From positions 5,952,501 through 6,016,500 of the forward strand of contig JARFIW010000170.1 of the NCBI GenBank assembly GCA_036346225.1: a stretch of 64,000 nt of DNA, given 5' to 3'. Below the pieces are notes generated by a model that saw only the letters and a list, made by a program, of their open reading frames with translations, was not told the DNA's origin and searched no databases. The stretch is from Platerodrilus igneus (lineage: Eukaryota; Arthropoda; Insecta; Coleoptera; Lycidae). Shown here one piece after another: positions 23,101 through 64,000 of this stretch. Made by a program: the position numbers and the translations under genes. Numbering within the stretch: the stretch's first letter is position 1; every line of letters begins with the position of its first letter.

Positions 23101-26100
23101 TGCACAGTTTGCATCTATAACTGTCTGATCTAGGTCTACATCTACCTCTTTTTTAGTATCTTTGCTTGTAATATATCACATACTATTCCCCAAAAATGCC
23201 TTAGAACGTATTCCGCCCTACTATTTCTCTTTTTCCCCAGATATCCTTGTTCCCCTACTATTTCTGTAACTTATTTGCTATTATCTTTGTCTGTCCATGC
23301 TATCGTCCTCATACATCTGAAGCACAGCATTTCAAAAGGCTGCTAGCGTTTTTCTGTCTGCGTTTCAGATTGCCCGTATTTCATAGGCATACTGTGCTGT
23401 GCTCCACACATATGCTTTCAACAATTTTCTTCTTATTCTATGTTTGTTGTCTTTCCTCATAGGGGCTGTTCTTTCTTGTTAGATGCAGTTCGATCACTTT
23501 CTATTGTTTTACAGTTATATGCCCTATTTCTCCGACCGTCAATGGTTGTGAAGGGAGGTACGCAGCCTGTGGCTTCCAAGTTACCCCAACACTTAACCAT
23601 TTGGCGATTTAATATATTTTCCAATTTATCTTTTCGCACAGTCAACATTAGTTGCAGGTATTTCGCAACCAACAACTAGTTGTTTATACTAATCATTAGA
23701 TTTATCTGCGCTTATTTTTTCGTCATTAGGTTTTCCGTCTCAAAACTGGTTGGACACGTACCTGCACTTATTTATGTTCTGAGCTAGACTACATAGTTCC
23801 CTGAAATTCTCACACAGCATGTGTATTCAGCTCGTTCCCTTTCTATTGTTTTCTAATTTTATACCCTATTTTACCGAGATTCAGTGAAGGAGGTTAAGCA
23901 ACCTGTGGCTACCAAGATCCCCCAACACTTAGACATTTGCCGAAATAATGATTTTCCAGTAAGTCCTTTCACACACTTAACCTTATTCGAGAATATTGCC
24001 CAACCAATTCTTGTAGTTACTTATAATAATCATCATATTTAAGCACAGTTATCTTTTCGTCATTAGTTTATCCATCTTGGGATTGGTTGGATGCGTACCT
24101 CCATTGATTTCTATTCTGGGCTAGCCTACACATCTCCCTGAAACCTCTACAGCCTACATCTTTTACTATCTGTGTGCAGTAGTCTAATCTAGGTCTGCCT
24201 CTGCTTCTCTTTTTTCCTATCTCTGCTTCTAATATATTCCGCACTATTCCCTCATGCCGTAGTATGTGGCCTATCATTCTATCTCTCCTCTTTTTTACCA
24301 TTTTCCACATATTTCTTTCTTCCCCTACCATTTTTAGTACCTATTCGTTCTTAACTTTGTCTGTCCATGATATCTTCATTATACGTCTGTAGCACCACAT
24401 TTCAAAGGCTTCTACTTTTTTCTTGTCCGCTTCTCCTACTGTCCAGGCTTCACAACCGTACAGTGCTGTGCTCCACACATATGTTTTAAGCAATCCTTTC
24501 CTTGTTTCTATGTTTATGCTCTTTGAGCACAGTAGTTGCTTTTTCTTGTTAAATGTAGCACGACCTTGTGCTAATCTTTGTTATATATCTTTTGTCCTTT
24601 TCCCATCTTGCGTTATTTGGCTTCCTAGGTAGCAGAAATCCTTAACCTCTTGTAAGTTCGGGTTAAATACTTGTATTCTTGTTTTTGATTTATTTTCCCC
24701 ACCTTTGCAAACTAGAACTTTAGTTTTAGTTTTGTTAATTTTCATACCGTATTTCTCTGTTAGAACCGTTTCCATTTCATTAAGAGCAGCTTCTAACTCT
24801 TCCTGGCTAGACGCTAATACCGCTATATCATCTGCAAATCTAAGCATATCAATTTTTTGTCCCTGCATAGTAATTCCAAATGTCTTCCTGCATTTGACAG
24901 TATTCATTGCCTCTTCTATGTACAAGTTAAAAATCAATGGGGATAGGGCACATCTCTGTCTCACCCCTTTCCTAATGTTTACTTCTCTACGTTCCTGCTC
25001 TAATTCTATTACTGCTGTTTGCTCTTTGTATAAGCTATGTACTATTCGTCTATCCCTATAACTCATTCCAATCTTTTTGAGTATTTCAAACATTTTTTTC
25101 CAATTTACATTTTCGAATGCTTTTTCCAGATCTATAAACCCTATGTACATGCTTTCCCCCTTTTCTATTGTTTTCTCCATTATTACTCTCAGAGCTAAAA
25201 TAGCCTTCCGTGTTCCCCTGTTTCGCCTAAACCCAAATTGGTCTTCTCCTAGTATTTTTTCAGCTCGTTTTTCCATTCGTCTTTGCACAATTCTAGTTAA
25301 TATTTTTAACACGTGTGCTGTCAAACTTATTGTTCGAAAATTTTCACATCTATCCGCGCCTTTCTTTTTTGGTATAGTTACTATGATGCTACGTTTGAAA
25401 TCTTTGGGTATCTCGCCTATCTCATACATATAGCTTACAAGTTGAAAGAGACGTTCTGTTACTGCTTGTCCAGCGGCTTTTAGAGTTTCTTCTTGCACCT
25501 TATCTGTACCCGGCGTCTTACCATTTTTCAGACTTTAATGCTAATTCAAACTCGTCTCGAAGTATAGAATATCTTAAGTCATCATTTTCAATGTCTGATT
25601 CCTGTTCTAATGCAGTTAGTTCCTCTCCTGCATATAAATTCCCTATATATTCTTGCCATCTACTCACTTTCTCTACGTTTTCTATAATTACGTTTCCCTG
25701 TGCGTCCCTTATATTTTTGCTATACGGTTTTATATCCCTAAAATTCATTCTAATTAATTTGTATGCTTCGTCTGTCTTTCCTATTTCCATCTTAGTTTGT
25801 ACCTCTTTGCACTTTTCATCAATCCATTGTTCTTTAGCTTTCCTGCATTTTCGAATAATTTCCCATTTTATGGCTTTGTATCTCTGTTTTCCTGTTTCGT
25901 CTGATTTATTTTTGTATTTTCGTCTTTCTTCTATTAAATTCAGGATATCCTTTGTTATCCATGGTTTCTTATTTTCTTTTTGTGTATACCCCAGAATATC
26001 TATGGCGGCCATGTCTAGGCTGGATTTAATGTTATTCCATTCTGTTTCTACTTCCTTAGTTTCAGATATTTTCCCGATATCATTCAGCAATTCATTTGAC

Positions 26101-29100
26101 TTTTTTTCGAATCTTACTTGAATATCTTTATCTTTTAGTTTCTCTAAGTCCAAGTGCCTTTTTCCGTTCCTTTTTTTCAGATTTTTAAATTTAAGTGCAG
26201 CCTTCATAATTACGATGTTGTGGTCAGTATCTATATCTGCTTCTGGGTAGCTTCTACAGTCTTTGATTCCTAAACCGATGTCTAACAAGAATGTAATCTA
26301 TTTGATATCTTCCTATATCTCCTGGCATCTTCCACGTATATCGTCTTCTAGCATGATGTTGAAATACTGTGTTTGTGATGATTAAATTGTTCTTGTCACA
26401 AAAATCTGCCAACCTATTTCCCCTGTCGTTTCTCGTGCCTAAACCAAATAAACCTACTACCGCTCCTTCCCTACCCTCACATACGACGGCATTAAAATCC
26501 CCCGTAATTATTAAATTTTCATGTCCTTTTACGTATCTTAATATGTCTTCGATATCTTTGTAGATGGCTTCTACCTCTTCGTCACTGTAGCTAGAGGTGG
26601 GCATGTATACTTGTATTATTACTGTGTTTACCGGTTTAGATTCTAATCTAACCATGAGTACTCTTTCGTTCTTTTGTAAGGAATTTTCTACACAGTATCC
26701 TATATTTTTCCGCATAACTATCCCCACACCCAAATTTCCTTCCTTTGCTCCTGTATGAATTACCCTGAAGTCTCCACTCCAAAAATCCCCCGCCTCTGGC
26801 CACCGAACTTCGCTGATCCCTACTATGTCTAGTGATAACCTATTCATTTCGATTTTTAGGTTCTCTAGCTTACCTACTTGCTTCATACTTCTAACATTCC
26901 ACGTTCCGACTCGCAGAATGTTCCCGACTCTTATTTTTAACTTTCCGATCGCATCCTCCGAAGTAGTCCCCTCCCGGAGATCCGAATGGGGGACTATTTT
27001 AACTCCGGAATCTTTTACCCCAGAGAATACCATCATGTTTGTAACAATTTAAGTACGCTGTGTACTTGGGAGATAATGTGGTGGGTTCCCGTTGCCTTCC
27101 ACATCGCGGTAGTGTGTCTTAGACTGCCATACCGACCCCTATCTCTGCCAATCTAAGTACCGAAAGAGCCGCTGCCCTCTTTCGGGGACCTGTCTTAGTC
27201 TGGTTCCTCACTAACGACCCTACTACTTTGGTTGGACCTGTAGTTTGGCTCTTTAGCTCATTAGAACACGCAAGCCATTTCACCTGTTCTAGTAATTTAG
27301 AACTTCAGCAAGGTGCAGGTCCATTCGAAATGGGTATGTTTTATACTAAAAAATAAATACAAAAAGTTTTATATACAGTCTGCTATGTACAAGTGTTTTA
27401 ATTAACATCTATCATTATCAAAGGCAACATTTTAAAGAGTAACTATACAAAAAGATGATTGGATCGTTTAATTTGGATTTGCTTGTTAATATTACAATCA
27501 TTATTAATATATACTTACTGTCATTTACTGTAACATGCTGGAAGGTACAAGTATTTGATATATTTTGTGCTGCTTGGGCCAGTTGTTCATCATAAGACTA
27601 AAAATATTAAAAAAATTATAATTAATTAATGGCTCAAATACATTAAACAAAAGAATAAACTTGTTGCATAACATCCATTTGCAGTTATCAAATATTTTAT
27701 TATGCTGGACAATGTTTAAAAGAATATCAATAAATACTGTATAATTTTTTTATACTACAGGTATAGTAGTTATTATTATCTCATGGCGGGTGACCTTGAA
27801 AAAATAAAAAAGTGAGACTAGAAAACATCGACTGCTTGCACGTCCAGTGTTGCCTGAGCAAAAATTGTCGAGCAACCAAGGAATGTGTTTTAAATAGTTT
27901 TATGTTGATTTTTGCTCTTCTATAAAAATGATCTGAGCTTATTGTTAGATGTGATACCCCAGATTATTGATTGATTGGATCAGTGTACACAAGATATTTT
28001 ATCACTTATAGTCACTAGTAGAACAAAAACAATTTGGTAGTACTACATATTCGTTTTTTTCAAATCAATAGACGTTTTTGTTTTAAACACAAACTATAAA
28101 CTATAAACACTATAAAAACATTAAATGCCCACCTCGAAAATATTACCAAGATTTATTACAAAAACGTTTTAAGAATATGTTTACACAAAGACACTCATGG
28201 TGTTATAACTAACAAAAACAAAACAAAAACAATTTTTAATTAATACCAAAAGGTTTTTATATCATTTGTTATATTAATATTATTATAAATTGCATATATC
28301 TCGTGCTTTATTTTAATGGATCATAGAATCAACAATTCAGTGCTGTAGAATTGAAGGAAGAGGAACAGTTATAGTATGAAAAGAAAGGTAATTAAGGTTT
28401 GCATCTTGTCAGGTTATATATTTTTTACATAACCTCATTTATAGTTTAGAAATATTTGCTAAATTAATATATTTTTTACTCACTTCATCGATAATCTAGC
28501 TATAAAATAATTCCTTGAATAATTAATAATCTTAACCTTTCTGACTAAACAAAAGCAATATTGCTTATACGACTGAAGTTAGATATACTACACCGGCCTG
28601 ATCAAGTGCTGTTGATATTATAATCATAGATTATTTAAATCGTCAAGCCTGCATAATGTCGTCGAATGCGGAATTCAGATCCGATCGAGTAGTACAATCC
28701 ACTTGTTTTAATGGATTGACTGGAGACGCTGCATCGGATCGAAAACTGGTTTATGTCGCCAAACTGAAGCGGATTAACACGATCGGATAAAAGAACCGAG
28801 ATAAATACAGTCAATAAGAATCCCTTTTGGAGACAAAGAATGGACATACTTAACAGAATTGATTATGATTGGATTAAAATGTAAAATAATTCAATCACTT
28901 TGAAAGCCAATCATTGATTGTTTCAGCTTTAAAAGTGATCGATTGTCACAGCACTACCGAACATAATTTGATATAAAGACTTCCCTCTTTAAGCAAGTTT
29001 TATTTCAACACCTCAGTAATAAACAATAATGTACAAACAAATGTATTTATGACACATATTTTCTACAACGCTAAATAAAAATCTTCATTCAACTATTTTA

Positions 29101-32100: not shown

Positions 32101-35100
32101 TTTTATACCTAAATTAAATACCCTTTTTCCCCTGGTTAAGTCATTACCCGCTCGAATAAATTCCATTTCTATTATTAAACTCTCCAATAATACCCTATGT
32201 GGTGTACCTGTTCAGTATAAGACCGCTTAACATAATTTTAACTCAAATCTTTTTTTCTTTTAAAACGAAAAGTATTCGATAAATTAAATAGTCTATACCT
32301 TGTTTTAGGCATCCGGTAATTTGTTAAACCTTCCGATAACGTATAATTGCTTTCTCTGGTGTTTTCTATTTAAAGACTTGCCGAAATGATAGATCTTACT
32401 ATTATTTGATAACGTGTTTTCCAGTTTTGCTAATCGTGCTTCGATAACGTGAGGATTGCAGTTAGAACTCGTGTTATTTGAACCCATTTTGAATTTGATT
32501 CCGTAGCTTGTGCATTGAAATATTTTCTACATCATTCCTCACAGTACTTTGAAACGTTTTTTGTTTGTTAATTGTTTTGGCGCAAGTAATACTTATTGTT
32601 CCAAAAATCTTCCGACACAACTAGGGGTCTATTCCTGGATAGAGCAATGAGAAATGGGGGGGGGGGGAAGTCGAATTCTGTTTGCAGATCAAACTTAAGC
32701 TAAATCTAATAGGCGCCACCAAGTCCTGATGTAATTACGATAATTGCATAGCATAGTTCTAAGGGCGGACGTGGAGACCCAAAGAAAAAAAATGATCGCC
32801 TTCGCTGACAAAAACCTGTCTTAATAAAATAAGACGCAGCTCCTGTAAGAAATTGTGATAGTTAAATAAATAAAAAAGTGGAACACCATTTGTGTCCTGC
32901 AAAAATACATAAAGAAATAATAAAAAAGTATTTCCAATATAAAATTGGCATCAATTTATTACTAAGAAGGGTTTTAGCTTTATGTAATTAGGTTTGATCA
33001 CACTTGATCAAAATAAAAAATCTTTAATCTTGAACCAATTGTTTACTAAAAGATCTCTTTTAAAATAATATAACTTGTAACAAAAAATTTTTATCATTAA
33101 CTGCATCAATCTTAAACTTTTAACTTTTCTGTTTGTCTTTATTATTATTCATCAAGCACTTGACTTTAAAACATGAACTTGTTGTACAAATAGGATTCTA
33201 ACCTGGGCAGATCTTTTCAGGTAGATAACAAATTAATAGCTCCTAACAATATTAGCATTTGAGCTTTCAAAATTACGTATACTAATTTTAGTGTAGATAA
33301 AGCTGATAACAAAAATAGACATGTTTACATATATTGCACTGCAGCTGTTCAAAGCATTTGCTTTTAAAATAACATCTGTCAGCTGTACAAAGTAGAAAAA
33401 TACGACGTCAGTAACACCTGTTGACATTACCGACGATTCATATGGAGCAAAGCATGTTTTTTTAGAACACTAAATCAATGAACTTTCATTTTACTACTGG
33501 TAAATCCAGCTCAACAATTAGTTGAAACTTTTACAATGTACATGTATTACGCATCAAAGCAAGTTAACGTGTTCCAAGTTTTGAAACACATAAAAAAACT
33601 TATAGCTATCTACGAACCAAAACTGCAATTGTCGCATTGTGACAAAGGAAAACGGGATCCCCGTTCTTTAAGCAACGATAACAGCGTTTGCAATTTGAAA
33701 CAAATTCATCCAAATCAACTTCTATAATTCCTTCGTTCCACGTGTCGAATCATATCCTGTCGCCTTACATTCTGCAGCAGTCGTACTCTCAAAGTTGAAT
33801 TACGTCACCTTCTAAAGGTTGCATCTTACATGTGTTTTTCTGTGTCCTTGTGTGTTTTTAAAAGTTGCATCCTACTTGTCGCGCTAAATAAATTATCTCA
33901 AATTACACAAGTTCGCACAATATATACATTACCGACCGTTATTCGAAGATATCCTCACTATTTGAAATGGATTCGTAGATTGCCGGCCTCCAACCAAGGG
34001 TACATGTTGATATTTCTATCACCTGTGGCCGACTATCTTATCACCAGCTCGAGCGGTCGCGCCGTCAAGAGGGGAACGAAACAATCAAACAGAGATGGGC
34101 TTGTAAATAGCTTTATAGGTCACAGATATCTGAATATAACTAGATTACTAAAGGACGATGCAGGCTTAGCGTATTACTTTTGAAGTTGAATGCAAATTAT
34201 TATTATTATTAATAAAATTGTTACACTATTCTTGAAATTATATGCAAAGAATTATTATCGAAAATAAAATTGTTACAACTTCATAAGCAATGCACGTTTT
34301 TTGTTTGACAAGTAGGAGGTATCTTGCTTGTATTGGTGAGTTTTCCCGCGCTAACCCATTCGAATCCGATTCTCTTTTCAGCTCTTAGCTGGAGGCCAAA
34401 TTGGTTCTTTCTTTATGTAGACCAACTGCTTTTGTCCGTAGACCGCTGCTGCAGTTACGGTGGCAGGGTGAATGAATCCTGACTACCATGGCGTTGCTGT
34501 GCTGACTCACCCCCGATGGTTTGCAAGCTAAGTATCCAGACACATGCAGATATACAACTTGTTTTCTTTGGTATATATCAATGGCATATTCCGTATCAGC
34601 GTTTGGTGTAGTTACATGATAAGAAACATTAACACTGTAGAACTATTGTTTGTTGCTGCGAATTGATATTATCGCTCTACAGGTGTGATGTACCATTGTT
34701 ACAAAAGCTCTCATGTTTATTTTCTACTGATTAGTTTTATTTTGTGTAAAATACGAGATACGCACTTCGTATCTAAAGTACTAAATTGTTCGTATCACAT
34801 AATTGTTTGCTTTGAAATAGTAACGCTTAATTTATTTCTTTTGCTTGTGTATACAGATCCTCTATTTATTTTTGTTGTTAATAGATAATTGTGAGCGATG
34901 TGTTTTTTGTTTGTTTTTTTGGTATGTAGGCAAATCCTCCCACGCTCCGAGTTTGGTAGTTAGCCTGGTATTTACTTTTCTTCCGGCTACTTCTAGGTAC
35001 GTAGCTTAAATTCTGACGCCCTGACTTGGGGCTGCGAGGTTGTTTTAGTTATCTCTTTGTGCTCCGATTTTGTTTCGTGTAACTTTGGCCCCGTTTTAGT

Positions 35101-49830: not shown

Positions 49831-51095
49831 GGCAAGATCACCTTGGCCCCCCCCAACAGCAAATTATTTTATTTTCTGTATAGCATCTGATTGCACCAAC
49901 ATTGCACCACATAGCACCAAAAGACTTATAGCTAGCACCCAAAAACTATGTGAGTTATTACAGTTCAAAGTTTGGGGGGGCTAATGTGATGCCAGCCCCC
50001 CCCCCTACACTTTTTTTCAAATTTTTCTTTTGCACCTGATGGCACTAACATAGCACCACATAGCACCACCATTCTCACAGCTAGCACCCAAAAATTGGCG
50101 TAGATATAGCAATTTAAAGTTTAGGGCTCTAAGCTACGTCAGCCCCCACTACATTTTTTCAAATTTTTCCTCTTGCACCTGTTAGTACTAACATAGCACC
50201 ACCAGTCCCATAGCTAGCACTCAAAAAATGACGTAGATATAGCAGTTTATAGTTTATGGCCCTTAGGCGAGATTAGCCCCCCACTCCACTTTTTTTAATT
50301 TTTTTTCTTGCACTTGCTAGTACTAACATCGCACCGCATAGCACCACCAATCGTATAGCTAGCACCCAAAAGATAGCGGAGATATAACAGTTTACAGTTT
50401 AATCTTTTCTCTTGTACCTGCTAGTGCGTCAACGACCTCACACACTTTTCCTGAAATTTTCCTCTTGCACCTGTTAGAACTAACGCAGCACATACCACCA
50501 CCAGTCCCATAGCTAGCACTCAAAAGTGTGTGTGGGGTCGCTGACGCACTAGCAGGTGCAAGAGAAAAGATTAAACTTTAAACTGTTATATCTCCGCCAT
50601 CTCGATTGGTGCGATGTTAGTACTAGCAAGTGCAAGAAAAAATTTAAAAAAGTGGAGTGGGACTAATCTCGCCTAAGGGCATAAACTATAAACTGCTATA
50701 TCTACGTCATTTTTGGAGTGCTAGCTATGGGACTGGTGGTGCTATGGTGCTATGTTAGTTCCAACAGGTGCAAGAGGAAAATTTGAATAAAATGTGGGGG
50801 GCTGACAGCCTAGGGGCCCTAAACTTTAAATTGCTATATCTACGCCAATTTTGGGTGCTAGCTGTGAGAATGGTGGTGCTATGTGGTGCTATGTTAGTGC
50901 CATCAGGTACAAGAAAAATTTGAAAAAGTGTAGTGCTGGCAATCACCTTCCCCCAAACTTTGAACTGTAATAACTCACATAGTTTTTGGGTGCTAGCTAT
51001 TAGTGTTGTGGTGCTATGTGGTGCAATGTTGGTGCAATGAGATGCTATACAGAAAATAAAATAATTTGGTGTGGGGGGGGCAAGGTGATCTTGCC
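49831..51095. mobile_element. Mutator-like foldback element with 9-bp target duplication
   Basis: The ends are GGCAAGATCACCTTGG and its reverse complement; the two halves (49,831-50,450 and 50,480-51,095) are inverted copies of each other over nearly the whole length. Both sides are flanked by CACTGTCTC (49,822-49,830 and 51,096-51,104), a perfect 9-bp duplication as made by Mutator-type transposases. Inside, units with GCACC, CATAGCTAGCAC and GATATAGCAGTTTA recur three to four times per arm, so each arm is itself tandemly repetitive. No transposase is encoded. Confidence 0.85.
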
Positions 51096-51106
51096 CACTG
51101 TCTCAG

Positions 51107-51325
51107 CTGTGCATTTTTATGGTGTGAATATTTATTCTACTTTGGTTTAAAAAAAATTTTTGGCAAATCTTGCAATCAACTTCAGTTACCGTATTTTTTC
51201 TTTCGCTGTCTTCATTAGTAATGGTAGATAAAGTTTCTTCTGGATTTATATGGACTTTTCCAATGTGTATTTTCAAAGCAATAGGGGTTTTAAAGGATCT
51301 TTGGCATATATCGCATTCAAATTAT
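51107..51325 (-). pseudogene. C2H2 zinc-finger fragment
   Basis: Two C2H2 fingers are evident: CDICQRSFKTPIALKIHIGK (then VH) and CKICQKFFLNQSRINIHTIK (then MH), with an acidic linker. Spacing fits CxxC-x12-Hx3-4H. The frame stops eight bases before the foldback element's target duplication and has a stop just upstream of the first finger with no clear acceptor, so this is a fragment of a nucleic-acid-binding gene, host or element derived. Confidence 0.6.
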
Positions 51326-51444
51326 GAGATTGATGACATTTGCATTAATATCGACATTTACTTGTCATTAATTCAATAAAGGATTTATAAAGTATTTATA
51401 TTGCATTGCCGCTCGTCCGAAACCGCGAAAATCCATACGCACGA

Positions 51445-54400
51445 ACGTCGTCCAGAGATGCACTCAAAAACCACTTTAAACCATTGAAATACAACTTGTT
51501 GTCTCAGGATACTTACAACAATTAATTTTAACCACTTACGTCATATTTAGATGTGGTTTGAATATTTTCATGAATCACCAGCGATGGCGTTAATGCAGTA
51601 TCATCACCACACTCTGATTTTGACCGCGGTTAATTATAGATTAAACATAATTTGTCACGTTCGAGCTTCGTAAACCACATATTTTATAGCAACACGTGTC
51701 ATATATACATGAATACTGCCACAGTTACCGCTATCTGTAGCAGAAAACACCTTTTTACAGTTAGACCACGCAGCACCATATTTTATATTTCATACACATC
51801 GCGCGCATTTTGTTGATATTGCGCAGGCTTTCACACTCGATACCCGGTCAACGCATCGTACGATTTTCAGAACCGGCACCGATATCGTCCAACAGAATAG
51901 ATGCTCGATGTCCGTCGCATTCATTCCCGTCAAGAAAAAGCCGGTCAATCACATCCACCGTTGTCTCTATAATTTCCAACATTTTTCAAACGACGGCAAC
52001 CTTTAAACCTGAGGATCTTGTCACACCCTGGCAACCAACCAGCAGCGCCACACATCATCCCTCGTTATGTATTCAATGTTTCACGCCCTTACAGTTTATC
52101 CAGTTCCACACCAACATTTTCCCGATCTTCCCATCATTTGTTAAACAAAAACACCGGCATCGAGTCGTTACACAGATTTTGTGGATGTGTACGAATATTG
52201 TCATTACATTTCCGTTACGTTTATTTGTCCACGAAAACAGATTTTTTAAACCACAATAATCAACGCTTTTATGAACACACCATTACCCACGACTCGATGT
52301 ACGACGGAGCAACATTAGAGAACACACCCCACGCAGTCAGCAGCATGTCCACATCTTTTGAAATATGCGTTACAGGTTGTAGCACCCATTTTATATGCTC
52401 GTGAGACCTCATCTTAATCGATTTTCTCGCACCACAGTTGTAGCCGCTCATACCAACAGACAACTACGCCACACCACATTACCCATCAACGTGTACCATT
52501 TCTCCCAATTTTTTATAACAAGCATATCACCGCAGTACCTTTAAGATAACATATTTGTTTGGTATCATCATTGACCCCCTGTAAACATAGCCACCCCATT
52601 ACGTTATGCCTTTAAAGACCAATTTTCATCTTATTTAACCCATCTTTAAACCCGTTACCAGCATGCACCGTTTCCTCAGAAACCGAGACACGGATAGCCT
52701 GTCAACAGGCCGGAAGCGATTTGAGGAGAAGAACCAGCCGGAATCCAAATTTAAACCTATTAAATACAAATATAAACAACTTCAACATCACGTAGATTGC
52801 ATTATTAGAATGATGTACCTTGTCCCTCGATAAACCACCGCACTGCGTCGTGACCGCATCAGCACCACAGACTGATGACTGCCGCCGTACGCCCGCACCG
52901 CTGAGCACCCTGCGCATGCACGCCCGATGCGCCGTACGCACCGCCGCGGCGTCAGACCCCAGTGTCGCCACAGCCATAACAATGTTACATACTATTATAA
53001 AACGTTTATTCGACAACAAATTATATTTAACCGCACGGAGTCATTTAAACCATTTAACACAGAGACAGTCCTTTATGTTCGCCATCTGCAATTTTACCAT
53101 CTCGCAGCTGTCAACGACTGTCTTCATCTCCTTTCAGTCAGCCTGACATATCGTCCAGCTCGAACGCGCTGCCCCATTTGTCACCCGACAACAGGTCCAC
53201 CAGCATTGCACACCGCAGCCTCACCATATCTGCACAGCTGATCGACTCTGGTATTGAGATCCCTTCACACGCCAGAATGCACCACCACTTTGAACAGGTT
53301 AGAAGACCTCGAGCGCGACCACAGGTAACACAGCATTGCGTGCGCACGAACCGCATTTCAGTTCGTTCATATTCGTCATTTGATACGTTTGAACCTTTAG
53401 AATGGATTTAGACATCCTTTCAGAAGAACGCCACACACCAGTTCATCCGCGTCGCACACAGGTGAACCCGGATGTCTGTCAACCATCGACGTCAATCATT
53501 CTTTCTCAATCATGTTCTGTTCACACATTGCGACAGTCGCAGCCATGTCCATGCCCGCACATCCTTTCCAGTTGTCTTTCCTTCAGCGCGGCATGCAATG
53601 CCAACGGATCACCATTGGTAAAATCGAACGTTAGGCGACATCTCACTGAATGACTCTGAATTGGAATCAGAGATCGTAAATATCATACCGATCAAGACCT
53701 GTAAGATTTTATTATCTGCTTCTTCCTCCATTATCTCCAACACACGGTCAGCCGCCATCACGCCCCCGCGGACCTGAAGCCCGTCAATTTCACCTTACAT
53801 CTCACACAGCAGCAGCACACCAAACAGCATTTCAGCCAGCTTCGTCCGATACCATTTTTTGGCACGAACCGAGGTTTTTACATTAACTTACATCTCGTCA
53901 ACGCCAAACGTCCTGACATATGTCACACCGCAGACGTTCCTCAACGACTGCAACAGCGCATCACGCACAACACAGGATGCCCTGACACCCAGCACAGCAT
54001 TGCCGCACATCTACAACGTTCAGTTGTTTGTCAACCGAAAACGTATTCAGCCCGCATTGCCACGTTCATCCACCACTCAGTTTTTCGTCGTCACCATAGA
54101 TATCATCTTCAATTTCTGCTCGTCCATCGCAACATCAAGTTAACATCTCCATGCATGAACAGCATTACACACCAGATAGCGATACGAGCGCACACTGAGT
54201 TCCTCCAGCAACAACATCCTGCCAGCGCGGAACACATTGATGAATTTTTTTAAACATTGAGGTCTTCTTTCCGATAACACACCCGGCACATACCTCAGCC
54301 AGAACACGAACGCTCGTTTCATGCCAGCTACACTGTCACGAGACTTCAGATGCTGTTCACACAAATTCTGAAACACATTTGCAGAGCCGCCAGAGCAATG

Positions 54401-54560
54401 CGATTTTAACCAGCCGACATTATATCCGACATATGGATTTGACAGGGTTTTCCAGCTTAGCATCTGTTCATGTTCGACATGACAAATGATTACCAACAGC
54501 CTCATTAAACCCATTAGCACCAATATTGAATAGACGAAAAATTATTAGGTTAGCCGCCGC
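51445..54560 (-). repeat. Left arm of the ~8.5-kb imperfect palindrome
   Basis: Read on the minus strand, this stretch matches 54,925-59,720 in order over its whole length: promoter-like TTTTTCGT-TATTCAAT, GTCGAA-GA-CAGATGCT, TGCATGCGCAGGGTGCTCA, GGTACATCATTC, TTTTTGTTTAACAAAT, GACATCGAGCATCTA, GCTCGAACGTG and TTGTTGTAAGTATC. It is about two-thirds the length of the right arm and more GC-rich. Small deletions are spread throughout. Confidence 0.8.
54140..54523 (-). pseudogene. Left-arm counterpart of the first palindrome gene
   Basis: A 127-codon frame reads VIICHVEHEQMLSW near its start, matching GNICYVEGEQMLTG of the right-arm gene. Later parts (VFQNLCEQHLKSR, LLLEELSVRSYRYL) have no recognised domain. 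Further down the arm only short frames remain, with one more local match (KLAEMLFGVLLL against the right-arm KVELADVV region). Function unknown. Confidence 0.45.
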
Positions 54561-54924
54561 GGCGCCGACCCAACCTATTAATTTTTCCTTTATCTAACCT
54601 AGGTCCACACTGTTAAAAAACTAACAAAACACAGGTTAAAATGAAACCAACCCAACCCATCAATTTCATATGGGTCAATGGCTTTTTAATAAAACATTTA
54701 AAAAAACCCATTAGCAACTCATGGTCATGTGGTCATATGGTCATGTGGTCATGGCAATTTCACCCTATGGGGTAATTTCACCCTATGGGGTAATTTCACC
54801 CAACTTAACATCCTACATATATCCGGATATATGTCGATGCGCATCCCGTCGGCTTAGGTCGGATAACAACATATTCGACTATCTTCGGCAATATACGCCC
54901 CACTCTGTAGAATACATAAGAGAA
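54561..54924. other. Centre of the palindrome with short tandem repeats
   Basis: The unmatched centre holds a GCCGCCGCGGCGCCGAC block, ATGGTCATGTGGTC repeated at 54,721-54,754, and AATTTCACCCTATGGGGT repeated at 54,759-54,810. Genes on either side point outward, so this is a candidate bidirectional promoter or replication region. Confidence 0.55.
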
Positions 54925-54974
54925 CAATTTTTTCGTATTCAATTTAGTATTCGATAGTAGCTAGAACGGTAAAC

Positions 54975-56705
54975 ATGAGCGTCTCCAAGGTGATTAACGT
55001 TTCTCAACTTCTTGGGAATAAAGTGAAACCGACAAATGAGCGATTTGGATTATGGCTGTTGACAGAAAATATGTGCAACAATAATCTGGTAACAGATATT
55101 GGTAATATTTGTTATGTCGAAGGCGAGCAGATGCTGACTGGTGGACTACACACACCAATTACAGAACCATTTTGTGACAATATAATGTTGGTTAAAATTT
55201 GCGACTTTCTGACGCCGAACAAAGCATCTGCAAGCAAAAGGATGTTTATCCTAAAAAGAAATTTGTGGTGCATTTAACAGCTATCTACGAAGAAAGTTTG
55301 ACCGATTTGTTTCGCTAGGCATGGTGTTAAAGCTAAGCTTCCGTTTTCTGGAAAGCACTAACAAGATGGGCCAGAGAGTAAAAGAAATTATCGGAAAAGA
55401 AGACCTCGAATGCATTAATAAAATATCCAAAATCCTATATGTGTTCCATACAAAGTGGAACTAGCAGATGTTGTTGGAAACTTTATTGGAGGAACTACCA
55501 GATATATTAGACGAACTCGAAAAAGATTATTTCTATCTTTTGACATGGATGTAACCCAAGATTTTGCGGGTATATTTAGCAAGATGGAGATGTGTAATTA
55601 TTTAACTACAAACCATAACTTTGCTATAAGGGCGAATACGAAGAAAAGTGTAATATTATAGTTGACAACGATAAAACTGTAGGAATTGATTGTTTAACAT
55701 GGCTAACAACCAATGCAAGAATTAAGATATACAACAAATTTGTGTGTCAGATAACAAGTCCTGGTGTTAATAAACAACTTGGCAATCATATACTAGATTT
55801 TTACGTTGTCCGATGTACGTTTAAGGGAAACATTTGCGTCTACTTTGGCCAAAGAACATGGTATTACGCGATTGGAAGCGACAATATACAACTGTGCAAT
55901 TGGAAGCTATGTCAGTGCGGAACGGGTGTAATCCCTTAAAAGACTGTTTAACGTTATTGGAAGATAGTAAGTTATACTTCCTAAAGGCGCCAATGTACTC
56001 GGTACCACTTGCCAAAATGTGGAGTAAGCTATCGGACAAGTTACAAAATAGTTGCTGTTTAGTGTATAATAACCTACTACAGTACGTGTATTGGGGAATG
56101 GTACAAAGAAATTGACGGCTTGCAAATTGTTGTCCGAAAACCAAAAGAAAGGGAAACATTGATAAAGTATGTGCTTTCGGCTTTAGTTTTAACTATTTAC
56201 CCGTAAATTATTTGGAGATAGTAGAGGAAGAAGACCAAGATAAAATAAAAATCTTACACAAGTGCTACATTAAAGCAGGTAGTACATATTTTACACACAA
56301 CACATATTCTACAATTCCAAAAGAAATAGTCATTTCGGAATTGGGATTGATAAATACACCCAACATTCGCCCAGAGGTTGTACGACAACGCGCAAATATT
56401 GGTAGTAAACTCTATCCGTTTACGCTAAAGGAAATTGCCATTATGTATGCCATACGCTGTAAGTGGAAGGAAAAGACAACTGAAATTAGAGGAAATGGAT
56501 GCAAAAGGCGAAAATTGACTACATGGAAAACACTGCGACAATACGCGAACAATACAAAGATGTGTTAGACAAAGAACATCTTATTAGAGAAAATGAGGAA
56601 GAATTAAAAGATTATTTTATGTGTCGATGGACTGACTTAGATACATCCGGGTTGTACAAGATGTATGCATTTGCGGTTAGTAAGAAAGACTCTTTAGTTA
56701 TGTAG
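54975..56705 (+). pseudogene. Palindrome gene A, unknown, replication-initiator-like at best
   Basis: From ATG 54,975 the frame reads NVSQLLGNKVKPTNERFGLW and GNICYVEGEQMLTG, then continues in changing frames: a Lys/Glu-rich part near 55,325-55,460, IDCLTWLTTNARIKIYNKF near 55,690, RLRETFASTLAKEHGITRLE near 55,820, and STIPKEIVISELGLINTPNI and PFTLKEIA at 56,310-56,450. The run K-YNK ... SPGVNKQLGNH ... R-E is reminiscent of plasmid or viral replication initiators, but no catalytic motif is certain. At least five frameshifts or stops are needed to read through, so it is non-functional as assembled. I do not recognise the family. Confidence 0.45.
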
Positions 56706-56777
56706 GTGTTCTTGCAGAAAAGGATGGTACTAAATCCGTATACTTTTAAAAGGTTATTCTAAAACGTATTTATCAAA

Positions 56778-57321
56778 ATGGCAGATAACAAAGACGAACT
56801 AAGGAATGCGGGTTTCGTAACCTTGGCGTACACCACACGCAAAGGGGTTCCGCTAAACATTGTATATTTACCTAGTAAAGAACCTTTCGGATCATTTAAA
56901 ACCGAGGGTCTTACAACCTATAACAACCATATATTCCCAAAAGTGGTGGATATGCAACTACGCAACGGTGTGTGGGAGAAAAGGATTTCTCCAATACCGA
57001 CAAGAAGAAGTCGATCAAGCTAACAAGATACGTATGCAGGATATAGTGGGAAAGCTGCAATTAAAAGATTGTCACAAGCTGCAGGAATTAGACGAGGGAA
57101 TGGATCTGGTTGTCGGCGGAATCAAAGTTTTTAAATATAGAGGCAAACTTCGGTACATTTTACAATTCGAAAACCTAGACGGTCTTTATGTATCAAACTA
57201 TTCGTTAGAAAAGGAGATAGAAGACTTGGGTGTCGATTTAAATTTTAAGCTGCGAATAAAATTAGATAAAATTAAAACCACTGCAAACAAACATAAAGAA
57301 AGGACTGTCTTCTGTGTATAA
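56778..57321 (+). pseudogene. Palindrome gene B, unknown
   Basis: ATG 56,778 opens MADNKDELRNAGFVTLAYTT, then VPLNIVYLPSKEPFGSFKTE and MQLRNGVWEK. A frameshift near 56,985 leads into KLQLKDCHKLQELDEGMD, FENLDGLYVSNYS and a basic end that stops at 57,321. A degraded second copy of its middle (AGGGTCTTACAACCTATAAC to GTGTGTGGGAGAA) is at 58,345-58,440. It sits 70 bp behind gene A. Function unknown. Confidence 0.45.
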
Positions 57322-57469
57322 CTTTGTATTAAAATTAAGTTTAAATGAGTCCATGCTTGGCATTAAATATTTTTAAATTTTGTTATGTATAATGTCGGAA
57401 TAAACATTTTATAATAGTATATAACATTGTTCTTATTTATAAAAGGCTGTAACGTTACCCCGAAATAGC

Positions 57470-57600
57470 AGTCGCACAGAGAGGGTGATGCGGCAGCGAG
57501 CATGGGCAGGTGCGTACGCGCATGGGCGCGCATGGGCAGGGGTGTGCATGCGCAGGGTGCTCATGAGCTGGGATGTCTGGGCGTACACGAGGGAGGCGGA
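57470..57600 (+). other. GC-rich block within both palindrome arms
   Basis: GCATGGGC and GCATGCGC words dominate. The left arm has the matching GC-rich block at about 52,860-52,945, so it was present before the arms diverged. Confidence 0.6.
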
Positions 57601-57785
57601 TGTTAACAGTCACCAAGCATCCACCTTTATTTGGTGTGGAGTACTTGCCTGCGTATGTATCCGGAGTAAAAGAATACGATTTGCATACGCAGCTTATTAA
57701 TAAAATTAGTTTATCGAGGGAAGATGACAAAGGTACATCATTCCTAATAGTACAACAATCTACGCATGGGGACGTAAAGATATAA
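57600..57785 (+). pseudogene. Palindrome gene C fragment, unknown
   Basis: The frame reads LTVTKHPPLFGVEYLPAYVS, then YDLHTQLINKISLSREDDKG and a stop at 57,785. It follows the GC-rich block without a start of its own, so the true N-terminus is unclear. No domain recognised. Confidence 0.35.
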
Positions 57786-58699
57786 GATAGTTGTTTATAT
57801 TTGTATAGATTTTGTAAACCTATTGTATATATTAGTTTTAAATTCCATAATTTTTAAGTTCTTCGCCCACCTTCCAAATCCTTCCGGCTTCTAACCTGGT
57901 TGACAGAGTATACGTGTTATCTCCACGTGGTATTCGGGACACTGCGGTTTTAGATTTCTTGGGATGGTTGGCTAAAGCATATGTCTTGCGTAGCAAAAAG
58001 GGTTTTAAAGATGGAGTTAAATAAAGATGGGCAAAAATTAGTCTTTAAAAGGCATAACTTTGTATGGGTGGTCCTATTTAAAATTTATTTACAGATTTGG
58101 GGTCCCTAGAAAATTTAATGTTAGTTGATGCCAAACAAAATATATTTATCTTAAAAGAGTGACTACCCTGCAAATAATAAATACAATATAACACTTGTCA
58201 ACAAAAAAGTTGTAGGAAAATTAAAGACGTATTTAATGGGGTCCAGTATTAGAATTTGTTGGTAATGTTAAGTCCTACTGTATTGTAGGCGAGAAAGATA
58301 CGATTAAAAAGATTAAAGGGTCTCACGAAGTGTAGTTAAGTAAAACCTAGGGTCTTACAACCTATAACGAGCATATACTCAAAAGGGTAGGCATGCAACT
58401 ACGCAGCAGTGTGTGGGAGAATATTCTCTCCAATAAGAAATTAAAGTTTCCATGTACGTAGCACCAGTCATTGGGAAATGGTCAAAATGTGGAACCTATA
58501 AAGGCGATTATTAATTATGGTTTAGAAAATAGGACTAAATAAAATAGCTTAGACTGGTTAATGTATATGGTTACATACTCGTACACATCCACAAACATCT
58601 GTTTACGTCCACAATATCGATACCGGTAGTTTTTGTTTAACAAATAGTAGGAAAGATACGTCGGTGTTAGTGCGTAAGCCCATAGGATCGTTGGATTAA

Positions 58700-59470
58700 A
58701 AAGAACGATGTGGCGGAATGTATGGTGGTCTCCGTTAGAATAATCGAAAGTGGTTAATTGATCGTATTAGATGTTTAAATAAGCGAAAGTGTAAAGGCCT
58801 ACATAAACAAAAATTTAATTATCCGACAAAAAGTGCGCGATGTGCTACACTTATAAAGAAAGTATGGAATGGTGCTTTTAGCGGCCCTAGCAGTAAAAGG
58901 GCGACTGACTTTTCCAAGCAACTACAAGAATAGCAGTAGCGCAGAGAAGGGGTATGCATGTATTATACAGTTGCTACAAAATATGTTAGTTTACGCGTAG
59001 CTCGGATGTGTAATTGATCACAACTTAAAGATCCTCGAGGTTTAAAAATTCGGCCCATTGTCGTTTGAAAATGTTTGTAAATTATCAGAACAGGAGCGGG
59101 TTGAAGTTTAATGGATGATTGACTGAGTTTTTCTACCTTTTACGAGGGAATTGGAAGTTGATAGACATCGAGCATCTAATTTCTATTTGGACGATATCGA
59201 GTACTTACCGGTTCTAGAAATCAACGTGCGATTGACCGCTATGCGAAAGTGTAAAAGCCTCACAGAAGCAAAATTTAATTATCATACGAAAAAGCGCGCG
59301 ATGTGTTATAGAAAGTATGGAATGGTGCTTGCATCGGTCCTAACTGTAAAAAGGAGAGTGACTTTTCTAGCAATTACAAGAATAGCAGTAGCGCGGCGAA
59401 GGGGTATGCATCTATTATACAGCGCATTGTTGCTATAAAATATGTTAGTTTACGGGAAGCTCGAACGTGC
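58700..59470 (+). repeat. Direct repeat with a small basic frame (58,740-58,985 and 59,215-59,460)
   Basis: Both units contain GCGAAAGTGTAAA-GCCT, AAATTTAATTAT, GCGCGATGTG, GTATGGAATGGTGCTT and AGCAGTAGCGC. The second lies in the 95-codon frame 59,151-59,438, which reads DDIEYLPVLEINVRL and TAMRKCKSLTEAKFNYHTKK. The left arm carries one equivalent copy. Product unknown. Confidence 0.55.
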
Positions 59471-60073
59471 ACAAATTAAATTTTAATCTATAATTAACCA
59501 CGGTCGTAAAAATGGGAAATTAATGGGTAATTTTAATAGTGCTAAGCATATACTTTCGCTTGGTGATTCATTTGGAAAATATTCAAGCCTATCATTTCCT
59601 AAAATATGACGTAGAAGTTATTTAAAATTAAATTGTTGTAAGTATCTTGTAGACAGCAAGTTGGTATTTTCTTAGTAATGGTTTAAAGTGTTTTTGGTTA
59701 TAGTAGCACTGCATCTTCTACAGCACGACTTGCACGCAATTTGTGTGCGTGTGCTATCACCCTTTTGGATTTTTAATATGCACGCGATCCGTATAACATG
59801 GAAGACGTTTCCGATGTTTCTACTAACGGCATTCGCACCATCGACGATGCGAACCAGGTGCATGCATTGGCGCTAAATGTATTGGACGAGCAGCAAGGAT
59901 TATAACGTCATTTAGTTCCCCGCCGAATCCTCAACTTCGTTCGGATGTCTTCGGAAACCTTCGGTTTGCATTCTATAAGGAGCATAAATCAGGTACGCTC
60001 GAGTAAGCTTTTTAGTTAGTTCGCTTACAAGTTTAACTAAAGTGCTATAGTGCGGGTTTTGTTTTGTACTAAA

Positions 60074-60592
60074 ATGGTACCTGCAAACGTTTATAAGTGC
60101 AACCCTTGCGGTGCTTCCTATACCTGGAAAATGTTCTCAAACGGCACCAGAACAAATGTCGTGGTGTAACATCGCCCAGGTTAAGCCGTCCGCAGCAAAG
60201 TACTTAAACTAGGTCTTGCGGTATCGCTTTTACGAGAATGGACAGCTTACAGCGACACAAGGAAAACAGCACGGTATGTCATTAAGCCGTAAACGTTCAA
60301 CGCCGCCAGCTGTTAAAGGGTCTTGTACGAAACAACCACGAATTATGTGTACAGTATGCGATTTCGAAATGGAAAACTACGTACGCCGCACACTTAAGGA
60401 GCAACAAACATAAAATGCATCAGTTACCGCTACTAACGAAGATGGCGTAGAAATGATTAGCACAGCGTTTAACAACTGTATGGCTAGCTATCGCATAAAT
60501 AACGCCAGCGTCGACGATGGAGTGTCCGAGTTTCTTTGGAAGCAGAAGGAACGATTTATTCGATTACTTAATAAAAAAGAATACAACATATA
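60074..60592 (+). pseudogene. Zinc-finger protein of DNA-virus/Maverick-like type, frameshifted
   Basis: ATG 60,074 opens MVPANVYKCNPCGASYTWK, a first C2H2-like half finger. In other frames follow CGIAFTRMDSLQRHKEN (a second finger, 60,217-60,270), IMCTVCDFEMENY (a third) and SNKHKM near 60,400, then GVEMISTAFNNCMASYRI and SEFLWKQKERFIRLL. From memory, this order (two or three fingers, then a G(V/I)xxIxxAFxxxxxSYRI segment) is seen in proteins of arthropod endogenous DNA-virus or Maverick-like elements, often near a protein-primed polymerase. At least three frameshifts are present; no polymerase is seen in the window. Confidence 0.5.
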
Positions 60593-60599
60593 ATCCGGA

Positions 60600-61040
60600 A
60601 AATACGTACGAGGTCTTAAACATCATTCCTAATAGTACAGCAACCTAATTAAGGTAGGTCAGTAAGCAATATTTAATTGCTGTTAATTGACTAGCATTTA
60701 GCGTACTTTCCTATTTAAAACCCATTACATTGAATGTGTTTACACGTGGTGTCGCTGGACGGTAAAACATATTGTTAGGTTAACGATAATATGTCTTATT
60801 AACCGAAAACACGTTTCCTCTTTTTACATTAATCTTTTTATTACAGGTCTATTTAAACAACACATTAATCTTTTTTGTTACAGGTTAACCTGTTGGATTC
60901 GGGTACACACCGGAAATAATGTTATACTTTGTAAAATTGTAATTAGTTTATTAAACTGTAAATTGATAAAATAAATTTTCGCATGCTTAATTTATGTTAA
61001 TACTGCTACGTGCTTGGTTAAAGGATTGTAGATATTAAAA
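60600..61040. other. Unassigned AT-rich DNA with a short direct repeat
   Basis: CATTAATCTTTT-TTACAGGT occurs twice (about 60,829 and 60,865). Near 60,620 CATCATTCCTAATAGTACA repeats a word from 57,739-57,757, so pieces of the palindrome unit extend here. No gene is seen. Confidence 0.4.
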
Positions 61041-61044
61041 GGAG

Positions 61045-61790
61045 AGGTGATTAGAAATTGATCTTGGTACAAAATCTTAAAATTGGGGTAGCTCTTAGGG
61101 ATGATGCAATCTGAAAAATTTAAAGAGATATGGGTAGCTGGAAAAATCTAATATTAATTAATACCAAACAAGGTAGGTTTATCTCGTGGGTGGAAATGTG
61201 GAGAAAGATTTATCTCGCAGAGGGTATGTGTAATTTTGCAGGGCGTGGTCCTATATTAAATCTGTTTATAGATTCGGATTCTACATAAAATTCTAGACTA
61301 ACAAGATGTATTGCATGTATAAAATTTTATAAGAACGCTCAAAAGTCGCTACAGGTAAAAATCTTAAAATTCGGGTAGCTCCCTTGGGGATGGTGCAATC
61401 TGAAAATTTAAAGAGATATGGGTAGCTGAGAAAATTTTAATATTAATTGATACCAAACAATGTACATTTATCTCGTGGGTGGAAGTGTGGAGAAAGATTT
61501 ATCTCGCAGAGGGTATATGTAACTTTGCAGGGCGGGGTCCTATTGCAAATCTGTTTGCAGATTCGGATTTTGCGTAAAATTGTAGACTAATTTAATGTAT
61601 CGCATGTATAAAAAAATGTTTAAGGACGGTCGGAAATCGCAACTGGTAAGAAATCTTGAAATCAGGGTAGCTCTCTGGGGATGATGCAATCTAAAAATTC
61701 TAGAAATTCGGGTAGCTGAGAAAATTCTAATATTAATTGATACCAAACAAGATAGGTTTATCTCGAAAGATGCAATGGCTAGACAAAGAA
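61045..61790 (+). repeat. ~290-bp tandem repeat, about 2.5 units
   Basis: Unit starts near 61,070, 61,356 and 61,648 (AAATCTTAAAATT-GGGTAGCTC); each has ATGATGCAATCT, TTAAAGAGATATGGGTAGCT, TTAATTGATACCAAACAA and TTTATCTCG. The same order of words, degraded, occurs in the palindrome arms at 58,050-58,180 and on the minus strand at about 52,560-52,620. Confidence 0.8.
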
Positions 61791-63240
61791 AACTATTTGG
61801 TTCAGATGAAAGATAAAAAAAAAATGGCTAGTCGAAGAAAACTTTTTGGTCCAGAATGTTAGCGGTAAAAAATCTTAAAAATAGGTTTATCTCGTGTGTG
61901 GAAATGTGGATGCTTGTGGAAATGTGGAGATGAATCTCCTCATTTCCTCCTTATGGGAATTTACATGTAAATTTGGTCCAGATGTGTGTGGAAATGTGGA
62001 TGCTGGTGGAAATGTGGCGGTGATTCGTAACTAAATACACTACTAGTTCCAAAATGTCAAATTTTTCTTGTCTGTATTCAACTTTTTGTGATTGGAGTAA
62101 TTATTGTTGTTAGGCTAAATTTATATGATTTTCCAGGTGGTACAGTTTCCAAATAACTAAAATGCTCTTCTTTTAAAATATTTGTTTTTATTAACTTGTA
62201 AAAATAAAATAATCTGTGTATGTATACATAAAAATGTCAACTTGACAATTTGTTATGAACTGAAAAAATGTTAGTTTATCATTTGCCTGAATTGAAAGTT
62301 GATACATCTAAAATAAACCGTTTCATGCATAATTTCTCCAAAAATTCTAACTTCTGCAAATGATGAAAATGAATATACTATTCAGATAGCTAACAAAGAA
62401 GCCTTATGACAAACAAACCCCTCACGTTGACGAGTCAAATGTTATGTCGTCGTCGTCGTCGTCGCGCGTCCCCCCCTCCCCCATCTAATCGGTAATTCAC
62501 AGAAAACTCAAAGAAAGTACGCCGCTAAAAATCCTGAGCGAAAACCTTAGTGTGCTAACAAAAATTGTAATCAACTAACTCAGTGGGATGGGTGATGTAA
62601 GTGTTTACAGAGGGAAAGAGTCGTAGAAAGAATAACAAGCGGGTGCCATAATCTGAGATCAGGAGAGTGATTCTGGCTTAAGAATATACCTGAAAATTCA
62701 TTAAGGATTACTATTACTTTAAACAAAACAAATATGAACCCTAAAAACACATAGGCGTATTTAAAACTGCTTACTGCCAAGACTGCTTCTAAAAACAAGT
62801 GCTAAATGACCTGAATGCTCAATCACGCTTCTAGGTAACTCCAAAATAATTTGTTACAGCAAAACTGCAAATATGCCGTTACATTAATGGAAAAAACCTC
62901 AAATATAAACATGTCTTTACACTACTATACACTACTTGTATCTAAGTATATAAACACACTTATGTTTTCATTACAAATACATAATACAGTCTTAAGCAAG
63001 TATTAAAAATCAAATATATCATAATATTACTTAAGTAGAATCTTAAACTAAACACACAGACGTACTGTAGGTATATTTCCATCAGTTCATGCATTAAATT
63101 TAGATTGTTTATTTTGTAGGATTGGCCGAAAAATAAAACATAAACCCTGATTTAAATAATTGAATTAATTTACTAGCATAAAATATAAACTTGGCAGGTC
63201 GCCGCATCATAACCGCGATTAATAATAATAATAATATCTG
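61790..63240. other. AT-rich DNA without supported genes
   Basis: Short repeats of GTGGAAATGTGGATG near 61,897-62,020 and a (GTC)n tract at 62,446-62,464. No coding motif seen. Confidence 0.4.
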
Positions 63241-63463: not shown

Positions 63464-63630
63464 AGATCTGGTGATAAATATAAACGAGCTTTAACGTAAA
63501 TATTCGGAATAACGGAACGGGAACGCAAATATTTAACAGACGGCTATACTATCGAGGCTTCGTGATAGAACAAGTAAAAGGGACAATCTGTAGAACGCAC
63601 TTAACTAAAACAGTTAATAATATAAATTCT

Positions 63631-64000
63631 ATGCTAGAAAATAGTTTCAGTGTCGAAGACATTTATACAACTATGTCAAAGTTAAAGCTTGCAAGTGACA
63701 ATCTGAAAGAAATTGATAAGCAAATTGAACCTCTGCTTAAGGAAAATCTAGAGGACGAGTTAATGAAAAGGTTTGAATATGAAGAGGTTGCTGTAACTAC
63801 GATGTCTAAGTTGGAATTTAGATTAAAATGCCCAGAAAAGTCGCAGATAGAGGTTGACTCGAATTTAACGAATACGATACCAGTAAGTAACGAAGCAAGT
63901 AGGCCGTCCTTTACGTCGGTGAAGCTTCAACGTGTACAGTTAGCAAAGTATGATGGTACTGCAAACGGCTGGCTTCCTTTCTGGGAACAGTTTAGAAGTA
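63631..64000 (+). CDS. BEL/Pao gag (DUF1759), start of polyprotein, cut by the window edge
   Basis: The frame is open from upstream of ATG 63,631 to the end. It reads SVEDIYTTMSKLKLASDNLK and other heptad-like helical stretches, then VKLQRVQLAKYDGTANGWLP followed by FWEQFRS, the start of a DUF1759 domain (LPKxxLPxFxGxxxxWxxFWxxF). It should continue into protease, reverse transcriptase and integrase beyond 64,000. No stop or frameshift is seen, so this copy may be younger than the other elements. The exact start is uncertain because the frame is open further upstream. Confidence 0.8.
   Translation, partial: MLENSFSVEDIYTTMSKLKLASDNLKEIDKQIEPLLKENLEDELMKRFEYEEVAVTTMSKLEFRLKCPEKSQIEVDSNLTNTIPVSNEASRPSFTSVKLQRVQLAKYDGTANGWLPFWEQFRS

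Follow-up and report, generated by a model that had tools for sequence, protein, structure and literature searches.

Organization of the insert

The window, a stretch of 64,000 nucleotides from contig JARFIW010000170.1 of the lycid beetle Platerodrilus igneus, carries a 10.6-kb insert (~51,403–62,044) placed within a host repeat, the halves of which lie on either side on the plus strand (left, 51,097–51,402; right, 62,045–62,247). In six of the nine loci tested, the equivalent of 51,097–51,402 is joined to that of 62,041–62,247, with 20–21 bp between. The insert is thus larger than the ~8.5 kb (51,400–59,900) assigned to it in the initial annotation and runs past the right-hand end given there.

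The insert comprises two arms around a central palindrome. Arm A (51,403–54,536, minus strand) is a worn, deletion-rich second arm matching the plus arm as far as 59,786, and arm B (54,597–62,044, plus strand) runs from the centre to a Polinton end. The minus strand of 51,400–54,920 was aligned locally with 54,921–59,800, which showed homology between ~51,441–54,504 (minus strand) and ~55,090–59,786 (plus strand); the score of 2104, compared with 698–724 in five mononucleotide shuffles and 753 with the arm reversed, confirms the earlier claim that the arms keep the same order, inverted, throughout. The alignment contains 2745 identical columns and 324 mismatches, with 1792 bases found only in the plus arm and 220 only in the minus arm. 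Stricter BLAST comparison of the arms recovered patches only, again in inverted order: 59,028–59,695 with 52,019–51,467 (71%, E = 3e-43), 58,575–58,653 with 52,198–52,128 (80%), and two further patches of 24–39 bp near 57.4 and 57.5 kb. The plus arm from ~59.8 to 62.04 kb has no counterpart in the minus arm.

Short tandem repeats had originally been placed at the centre. The centre is instead a GC-rich palindrome (~54,537–54,593), imperfect in this copy and predicted to fold into a hairpin (z = −2.1), and the tandem repeats (54,721–54,801) belong to the adjoining single-copy spacer of the dimer (54,597–55,090, plus strand, right limit approximate). The insert therefore has mirror-image arms around a hairpin-forming centre, the arrangement expected of a snapback replicon.

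The main gene of the plus arm, ORF1 (54,975–57,318, plus strand), was recovered as four tblastn pieces of the protein P0038 and has a broken frame of ~780 aa. The insect gene it represents, of ~785 aa, matches none of the families searched: no family match was found in Pfam, NCBIfam, PHROG, or PDB, and no match in IMG/VR or among plasmids. A known virus or plasmid as the source of ORF1 was accordingly dropped. The ORF1 motifs D-x-D-x-T-Q-D-F, K-x-Y-N-K, and R-L-E-A-T may be Rep-like. For four ORF1 relatives, the literature searched gave no paper that names them. Downstream on the same strand are a GC-rich block (57,496–57,576) that is also present in an autonomous Polinton (L068, 6706–6818; 84–88% identity), a remnant of the PolB C-terminus (57,653–57,784; E = 8e-5 with the L058 PolB), a second PolB remnant (58,134–58,320; E = 3e-13 with the L064 PolB), and a direct repeat pair (58,780–59,469; 58,780–59,004 and 59,240–59,463, 82%). 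They are followed by a zinc-finger frame (60,020–60,578), broken in the window, that corresponds to the N-terminal exon of PolB: it is 70% identical to the L046 zinc-finger frame, which in turn is 55% identical to the start of the L064 PolB. A search of phages with this frame, rather than with ORF1, gave no match. The arm closes with a Polinton-type terminal region (60,734–62,044) containing repeats of ~290 bp. The initial description of the frames as unidentified thus holds for ORF1, whereas Polinton/adintovirus sequence makes up the outer end and a number of fragments.

Wear of the minus arm

The window minus arm shows 437 deletion events and 324 substitutions, i.e., 1.35 deletion events per substitution. 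A second worn arm, at locus C325 (1.149–1.153 Mb), gives 1.40 against its own other arm and 0.97 against the window plus arm, compared with 0.16–0.17 for the plus arms of other copies against the window. At C325, two pieces have 61 and 64 private substitutions together with 33 and 35 deletion events, and the first piece has a doubtful 203 substitutions and seven deletion events; these counts exclude, as misaligned, the window minus arm and, in the 56,050–57,300 piece, also L002left and L008left. An old sister family was considered as the source of the worn arm and rejected: matches elsewhere are 70–80% identical over the outer ~575 bp, besides a central motif of 65–92 bp and two further short pieces at C439 (among 40 candidates scored).

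Base-calling error on a real second arm may account for much of the minus arm's imperfect appearance. PMC7229812 describes nanopore reads in which bases are missed on the second arm of inverted duplicates. Between the two worn arms, 191 deletion positions are shared, compared with an expectation of 150 (sd 12.8; a count this high arose in 4 of 1000 shifts), as sequence-dependent error could give. The competing reading, on which we place a minority weight, is that the wear is biological, through a deletion-prone mutational process acting on one arm of the integrated palindrome. Wear occurs both in the window and at C325, where the sequence beyond the worn zone is normal (94%); artefact alone also leaves unexplained the loss of the outermost 2.2 kb from the window's minus arm and a 1.3-kb jump at C325, and the nanopore precedent may not apply to this assembly. 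Against real decay stand the deletion ratios, the coincidence of deletion sites, the published artefact (PMC7229812), and the adjoining host repeat, which aligns with L010 over 51,097–51,396 without net length change.

Relatives and copies in the same genome

Polinton/Maverick elements are defined by terminal inverted repeats and a 6-bp target duplication. The outer end of the insert is common to eight of ten fetched PolB loci, which are canonical Polinton/adintovirus-type elements, and on this basis we derive the unit, with its PolB remnants, from Polintons. One such relative that was read more fully, C970, encodes an integrase (rve), a DJR capsid, an A32-like ATPase, a C2H2 protein, and PolB, and has a 6-bp target site duplication (TSD); its ends are 95% alike. 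The unit and C970 have in common the outer terminal region, AGTAG...CTACT ends, 6-bp TSDs, and PolB sequence, reduced to remnants in the unit and present as full-length frames in relatives. Unlike C970, the unit as read is a mirror-image structure of 15–16 kb without integrase, capsid, or full PolB, and ORF1 is absent from C970 as read. No integrase was noticed among the unit frames, nor any DJR capsid or packaging ATPase among the six run against Pfam. The unit as read shares its termini with an autonomous element of the same genome and lacks the full genes, as a non-autonomous element does.

A search for the unit elsewhere, suggested as a check in the initial annotation, showed the plus arm to be high-copy and located ~760 sites of the family's central palindrome genome-wide (control, 0). 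Among these centres, 44 show symmetry across 94 bp, allowing up to three mismatches (control, 0). We read 15 centres: nine continue into a long second arm, two (L070 and L071) pass straight to the Polinton end, and four lead to a stub or other DNA. The second side of L070 and L071 resembles that of an ordinary short-ended element; since L070 is among the 44 symmetric sites, these may represent a short-ended subfamily. Second arms are clean at L002, L005, L008, L069, and L073. The junction, i.e., the point of re-entry, differs in all eight readable copies with a long second arm, so symmetry was probably lost copy by copy.

Two other mirror-image copies, C811 (564,957–581,306) and C1598 (167,825–183,446), were the only ones read at both outer ends, the reading covering their outer rather than inner parts. 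They span 16.35 and 15.62 kb, and both have terminal inverted repeats and 6-bp target duplications; the outer arms of C811 are 99.2% identical over 3463 columns. Neighbouring pairs of zinc-finger genes within 30 kb point outward in 11 of 12 cases and are tandem in one (among 150 matches listed). The window copy has lost its left end and hence shows no TSD; the outer part of arm A would have gone together with ~20 bp of host repeat.

Origin of the palindrome and its implications

We conclude that the locus probably represents a single insertion: a non-autonomous element, derived from Polintons of the adintovirus type, that takes the form of a head-to-head inverted dimer when integrated. The initial annotation had suggested a head-to-head dimer of a virus-like genome; the TSDs of C811 and C1598 and the outward zinc-finger pairs, among the matches listed, back the dimer, while the reading as a whole is supported in part.

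It is unlikely, at perhaps one chance in a few, that Polinton terminal repeats instead lengthened inward through recombination until they joined, the dimer being inherited rather than remade by snapback. The ends are ordinary Polinton ends and L070 and L071 resemble short-ended single units, as this would predict, but eight differing junctions out of eight are unexpected of one inherited structure unless decay is quick. Nested insertion of two separate elements head to head is improbable: re-entry points vary between copies as nesting would have it, yet every junction has the same central palindrome, which continues symmetrically into the arms, and the TSDs of C811 and C1598 enclose the whole structure. 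Least probable, and already disfavoured, is that the whole palindrome arose as an artefact of fold-back reads or of assembly. As in fold-back reads, the worn arm adjoins and is co-extensive with the plus arm's copy, but the insert lies between two halves of one host repeat, mirror-image copies elsewhere sit in different flanking sequence within 6-bp target duplications, and five second arms are clean.

For the inverted dimer, a mechanism can be proposed. Linear replicating DNA would snap back at the central hairpin, and copying would yield a self-complementary dimer whose two ends are identical. The integrase and PolB of autonomous relatives would act on it in trans; the unit as read has neither an integrase nor a full PolB. 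During insertion or afterwards, each palindrome would lose a stretch of one arm close to the centre, which would give copies their own junctions; the asymmetry may alternatively arise at dimer formation rather than through later deletion. More tentatively, we suggest a Polinton satellite lineage that spreads as self-complementary (snapback) linear DNA, in which the dimer is remade at each replication round via the central hairpin, one end sequence provides both ends for the integrase, every insertion retains a centre junction of its own, and ORF1 serves as the lineage's own replication or packaging protein.

Parts of this scheme have parallels in known systems. AAV snapback genomes (PMC8235507) are likewise self-complementary head-to-head molecules, either symmetric or carrying an asymmetric loop; AAV differs as a parvovirus with its own Rep and ITR, found in particles rather than as germline insertions, and serves as an analogy only. 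Palindromic transgene concatemers also have head-to-head junctions with asymmetric central deletions, which stabilise the palindromes (PMC8701086), but they derive from injected DNA, without mobile-element ends or target duplications. Bidnaviridae are insect viruses that combine a linear genome with a PolB of Polinton type (PMC11071308); in contrast, ORF1 matches no family searched, and the ends here are local Polinton ends. Among the papers listed on palindromic, inverted-dimer, and non-autonomous Polintons and neighbouring topics, none showed such an element.

If correct, the worn arms would also caution that similar wear next to palindromes in long-read assemblies may stem from read error, and ORF1 would point to an unnamed insect protein family of ~785 aa. 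The ~760 centres in one genome would constitute a natural experiment on the survival of long palindromes in animals. Moreover, the element would link Polinton biology to parvovirus snapback genomes, as a parasite that needs one end sequence and borrows the polymerase and integrase of a helper.

Extent of the palindrome and its flanks

Local alignment of the minus strand of 51,400-54,920 with 54,921-59,800 gave a score of 2104; five shuffles scored 698-724 and the reversed arm scored 753. BLAST of the window against itself returned the arm matches as patches, all in one inverted order. The arms are thus homologous in inverted order, as the initial annotation had proposed, but the limits of the palindrome are wider than it gave. 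We place the insert at ~51,403-62,044 (10,642 bp), since the flanking halves of the host repeat that it interrupts (51,097-51,402 and 62,041-62,247) are neighbors elsewhere in the genome, with a gap of 20-21 bp at six of the nine loci tested; at the remaining loci, the right half was not found (L013, L017) or scored low (L012). The host repeat is short by ~20 bp at the insertion site and the left Polinton end is absent at the left edge of the insert; the left end of the window insert has therefore been lost. The plus arm (54,597-62,044) and the minus arm (51,403-54,536) meet at a central palindrome (~54,537-54,593). The tandem repeats previously assigned to the center are present at 54,721-54,801, but adjoin it rather than form it.

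Other features of the window were also recorded. Immediately left of the insert, tandem units of 138-149 bp make up a local inverted repeat at 49,831-51,095 (90% over 516 columns). A further inverted arm pair (20,819-22,445 and 32,593-34,278; 93-94% alike, ~10-11 kb apart) is perhaps a second long-armed element. An open frame at 63,484-64,000 continues past the window edge; it has no Pfam match at 0.01 and presumably resembles a BEL/Pao-type gag.

Polinton membership and genomic copies

The element is a Polinton derivative, and the earlier suggestion of a head-to-head, virus-like dimer was largely right. We fetched 10 of the 115 PF03175 (PolB) matches, and eight of these loci carry long matches to 60,734-61,026 and, downstream of PolB, to 61,066-62,024; in L064 and L056, the matches to these terminal regions are limited to short patches. 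An autonomous Polinton copy on contig C970 (11,494 bp, duplication ATCATC, repetitive flank) has ends that are 95% alike over 637 columns and encodes an rve integrase (PF00665, 3e-10), a double-jelly-roll capsid protein (PF21738, 2e-34), a poxvirus-A32-like ATPase (PF04665, 1e-6), and C2H2 fingers with PolB. Polintons in general have 6-bp duplications and AG ends. They have been described as carrying PolB and a retroviral-like integrase (PMC6431247). In L058, the PolB frame has a match to DNA_pol_B_2 (2e-31); hmmscan did not show this domain in the L064 frame, though the genome PF03175 search listed it, and the two frames are 69% identical over 1032 residues. PolB remnants persist in the window unit at 57.65-57.78, 58.13-58.32, and 60.02-60.58 kb, and the zinc-finger frame (60,020-60,578) matches the beginning of the PolB frame of L064 at 55% identity.

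The claim that the frames match no nameable family fails for these remnants and for the Polinton end, but holds in family searches for ORF1, a broken plus-arm frame of ~780 aa: no family was found, matches up to the limits used being weak and scattered. By tblastn, a 789-aa relative aligns in four pieces spanning 54,975-57,318; ORF1 is likewise in pieces in L003, L005, L006, and L007, with weak pieces in L066 and none in the C970 loci. Nine of 27 ORF1 relatives are 764-789 aa long, and those with insect names come from Laodelphax, Cinara, Cacopsylla, Semiaphis, and Schistocerca. Another (P0040, 785 aa), filed under the leafhopper symbiont Baumannia cicadellinicola, is probably insect DNA inside a symbiont bin.

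Searching the genome (2.71 Gb, 1723 contigs) for the unit, as had been recommended, recovered many copies and showed that the plus arm is present in high copy number. The arm has at least 43 matches including itself, the others being 90-96% identical among the matches listed. The best 150 of 26,682 candidates for the zinc-finger frame are all at ≥91% identity, 11 of them with internal stops. Among these 150, there were 12 neighboring pairs within 30 kb (11 outward, one tandem, none inward), against a random expectation of ~0.25. With ≤2 mismatches, the central palindrome occurs 764 times on the forward strand and 754 times on the reverse strand, largely at the same places; the reversed control has no sites. 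Two mirror-image copies, the only palindromes read at both outer ends and fetched as outer parts alone, are flanked by 6-bp duplications: C811 (16,350 bp, TGCTGT; outer arms 99.2% identical over 3463 columns) and C1598 (15,622 bp, TAAATT). A third, C347, was read at its center and has inverted arms ~96% and ~95% identical to the window plus arm.

Wear of the minus arm

The minus arm of the window carries 437 deletion events against 324 substitutions (ratio 1.35). For the worn arm of a second copy, C325, the counts are 344 and 246 (1.40) when it is compared to the other arm of that copy, and 304 and 312 (0.97) when it is compared to the window plus arm; past the worn zone, C325 returns to 94% identity. 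The ratio is 0.16-0.17 for the L003 and L007 plus arms versus the window, 0.32-0.40 for clean second arms, and 0.76 for the C811 arms, where events are few (25 versus 33). The window plus arm is itself somewhat deletion-prone, since bases are missing from it at 68 places relative to L003 and 55 relative to L007. The two worn arms share 191 deletion sites versus 150 expected (sd 12.8; reached by 4 of 1000 shifts). GC content is 0.454 in the worn arm and 0.369 in its counterpart. Within 51,403-54,536, A is lost most and G least, with 93 G-for-A versus 28 A-for-G changes, a bias not shown by the C325 arm.

At inverted duplicates, nanopore reads are reported to miss bases in the second part, which yields shorter regions (PMC7229812). 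The worn arm, with 3.3 kb for 4.9 kb, fits this artifact in kind, though the sequencing platform here may differ. Real decay of the arm is less likely, yet it keeps some weight because the artifact alone explains neither the missing outer 2.2 kb of the window arm nor a 1.3-kb jump at C325.

Common center, private junctions, and proposed mechanism

A perfect central palindrome of half-length 30-33 was found in L003, L005, and L008, and likewise in L002 with one near-middle mismatch; half-lengths in L069-L074 are 32, 53, 35, 33, 23, and 26, respectively. Symmetry over 94 bp with ≤3 mismatches occurs at 44 genome sites, eight of them without mismatch, compared to none in the control; these sites, L070 among them, may in part represent an L070-like subfamily.

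Fifteen centers were read (L002-L008, L067 on C347, L069-L074, and the window). A long second arm in inverted orientation is present in nine (L002, L004, L005, L008, L067, L069, L072, L073, and the window). The point of re-entry differs in all eight of these that were readable: 54,844 (L073), 54,980 (L002), 55,013 (L008), 55,028 (L072, preceded by ~180 bp of other DNA), ~55,090 (window, from the arm alignment), 55,283 (L005), 55,448 (L069), and 55,607 (C347). The second side of L070 and L071 leads to the Polinton end at ~61.7 kb, which directly adjoins the central palindrome, as though single units with short ends were present too. The second side is a stub or other DNA in L003, L006, L007, and L074; in L006, the palindrome abuts a repeat also present at window 25,715-26,397. 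At L057 (3420-3523), ~100 bp of the element inner end is fused directly to a PolB gene truncated at its start. In transgenic palindromes, most inverted junctions are reported to carry asymmetric deletions believed to be stabilizing (PMC8701086).

These insertions are palindromes with Polinton ends, flanked by 6-bp duplications; they share a common center and have private junctions. We propose that a linear genome would be copied by snapback through the central hairpin. Snapback genomes of AAV are reported to include symmetric forms and looped asymmetric forms (PMC8235507); by analogy, the loops here may have been made at dimer formation rather than by later deletion, and the data fit both. Symmetry would be lost during or after insertion, and autonomous Polintons would help in trans.
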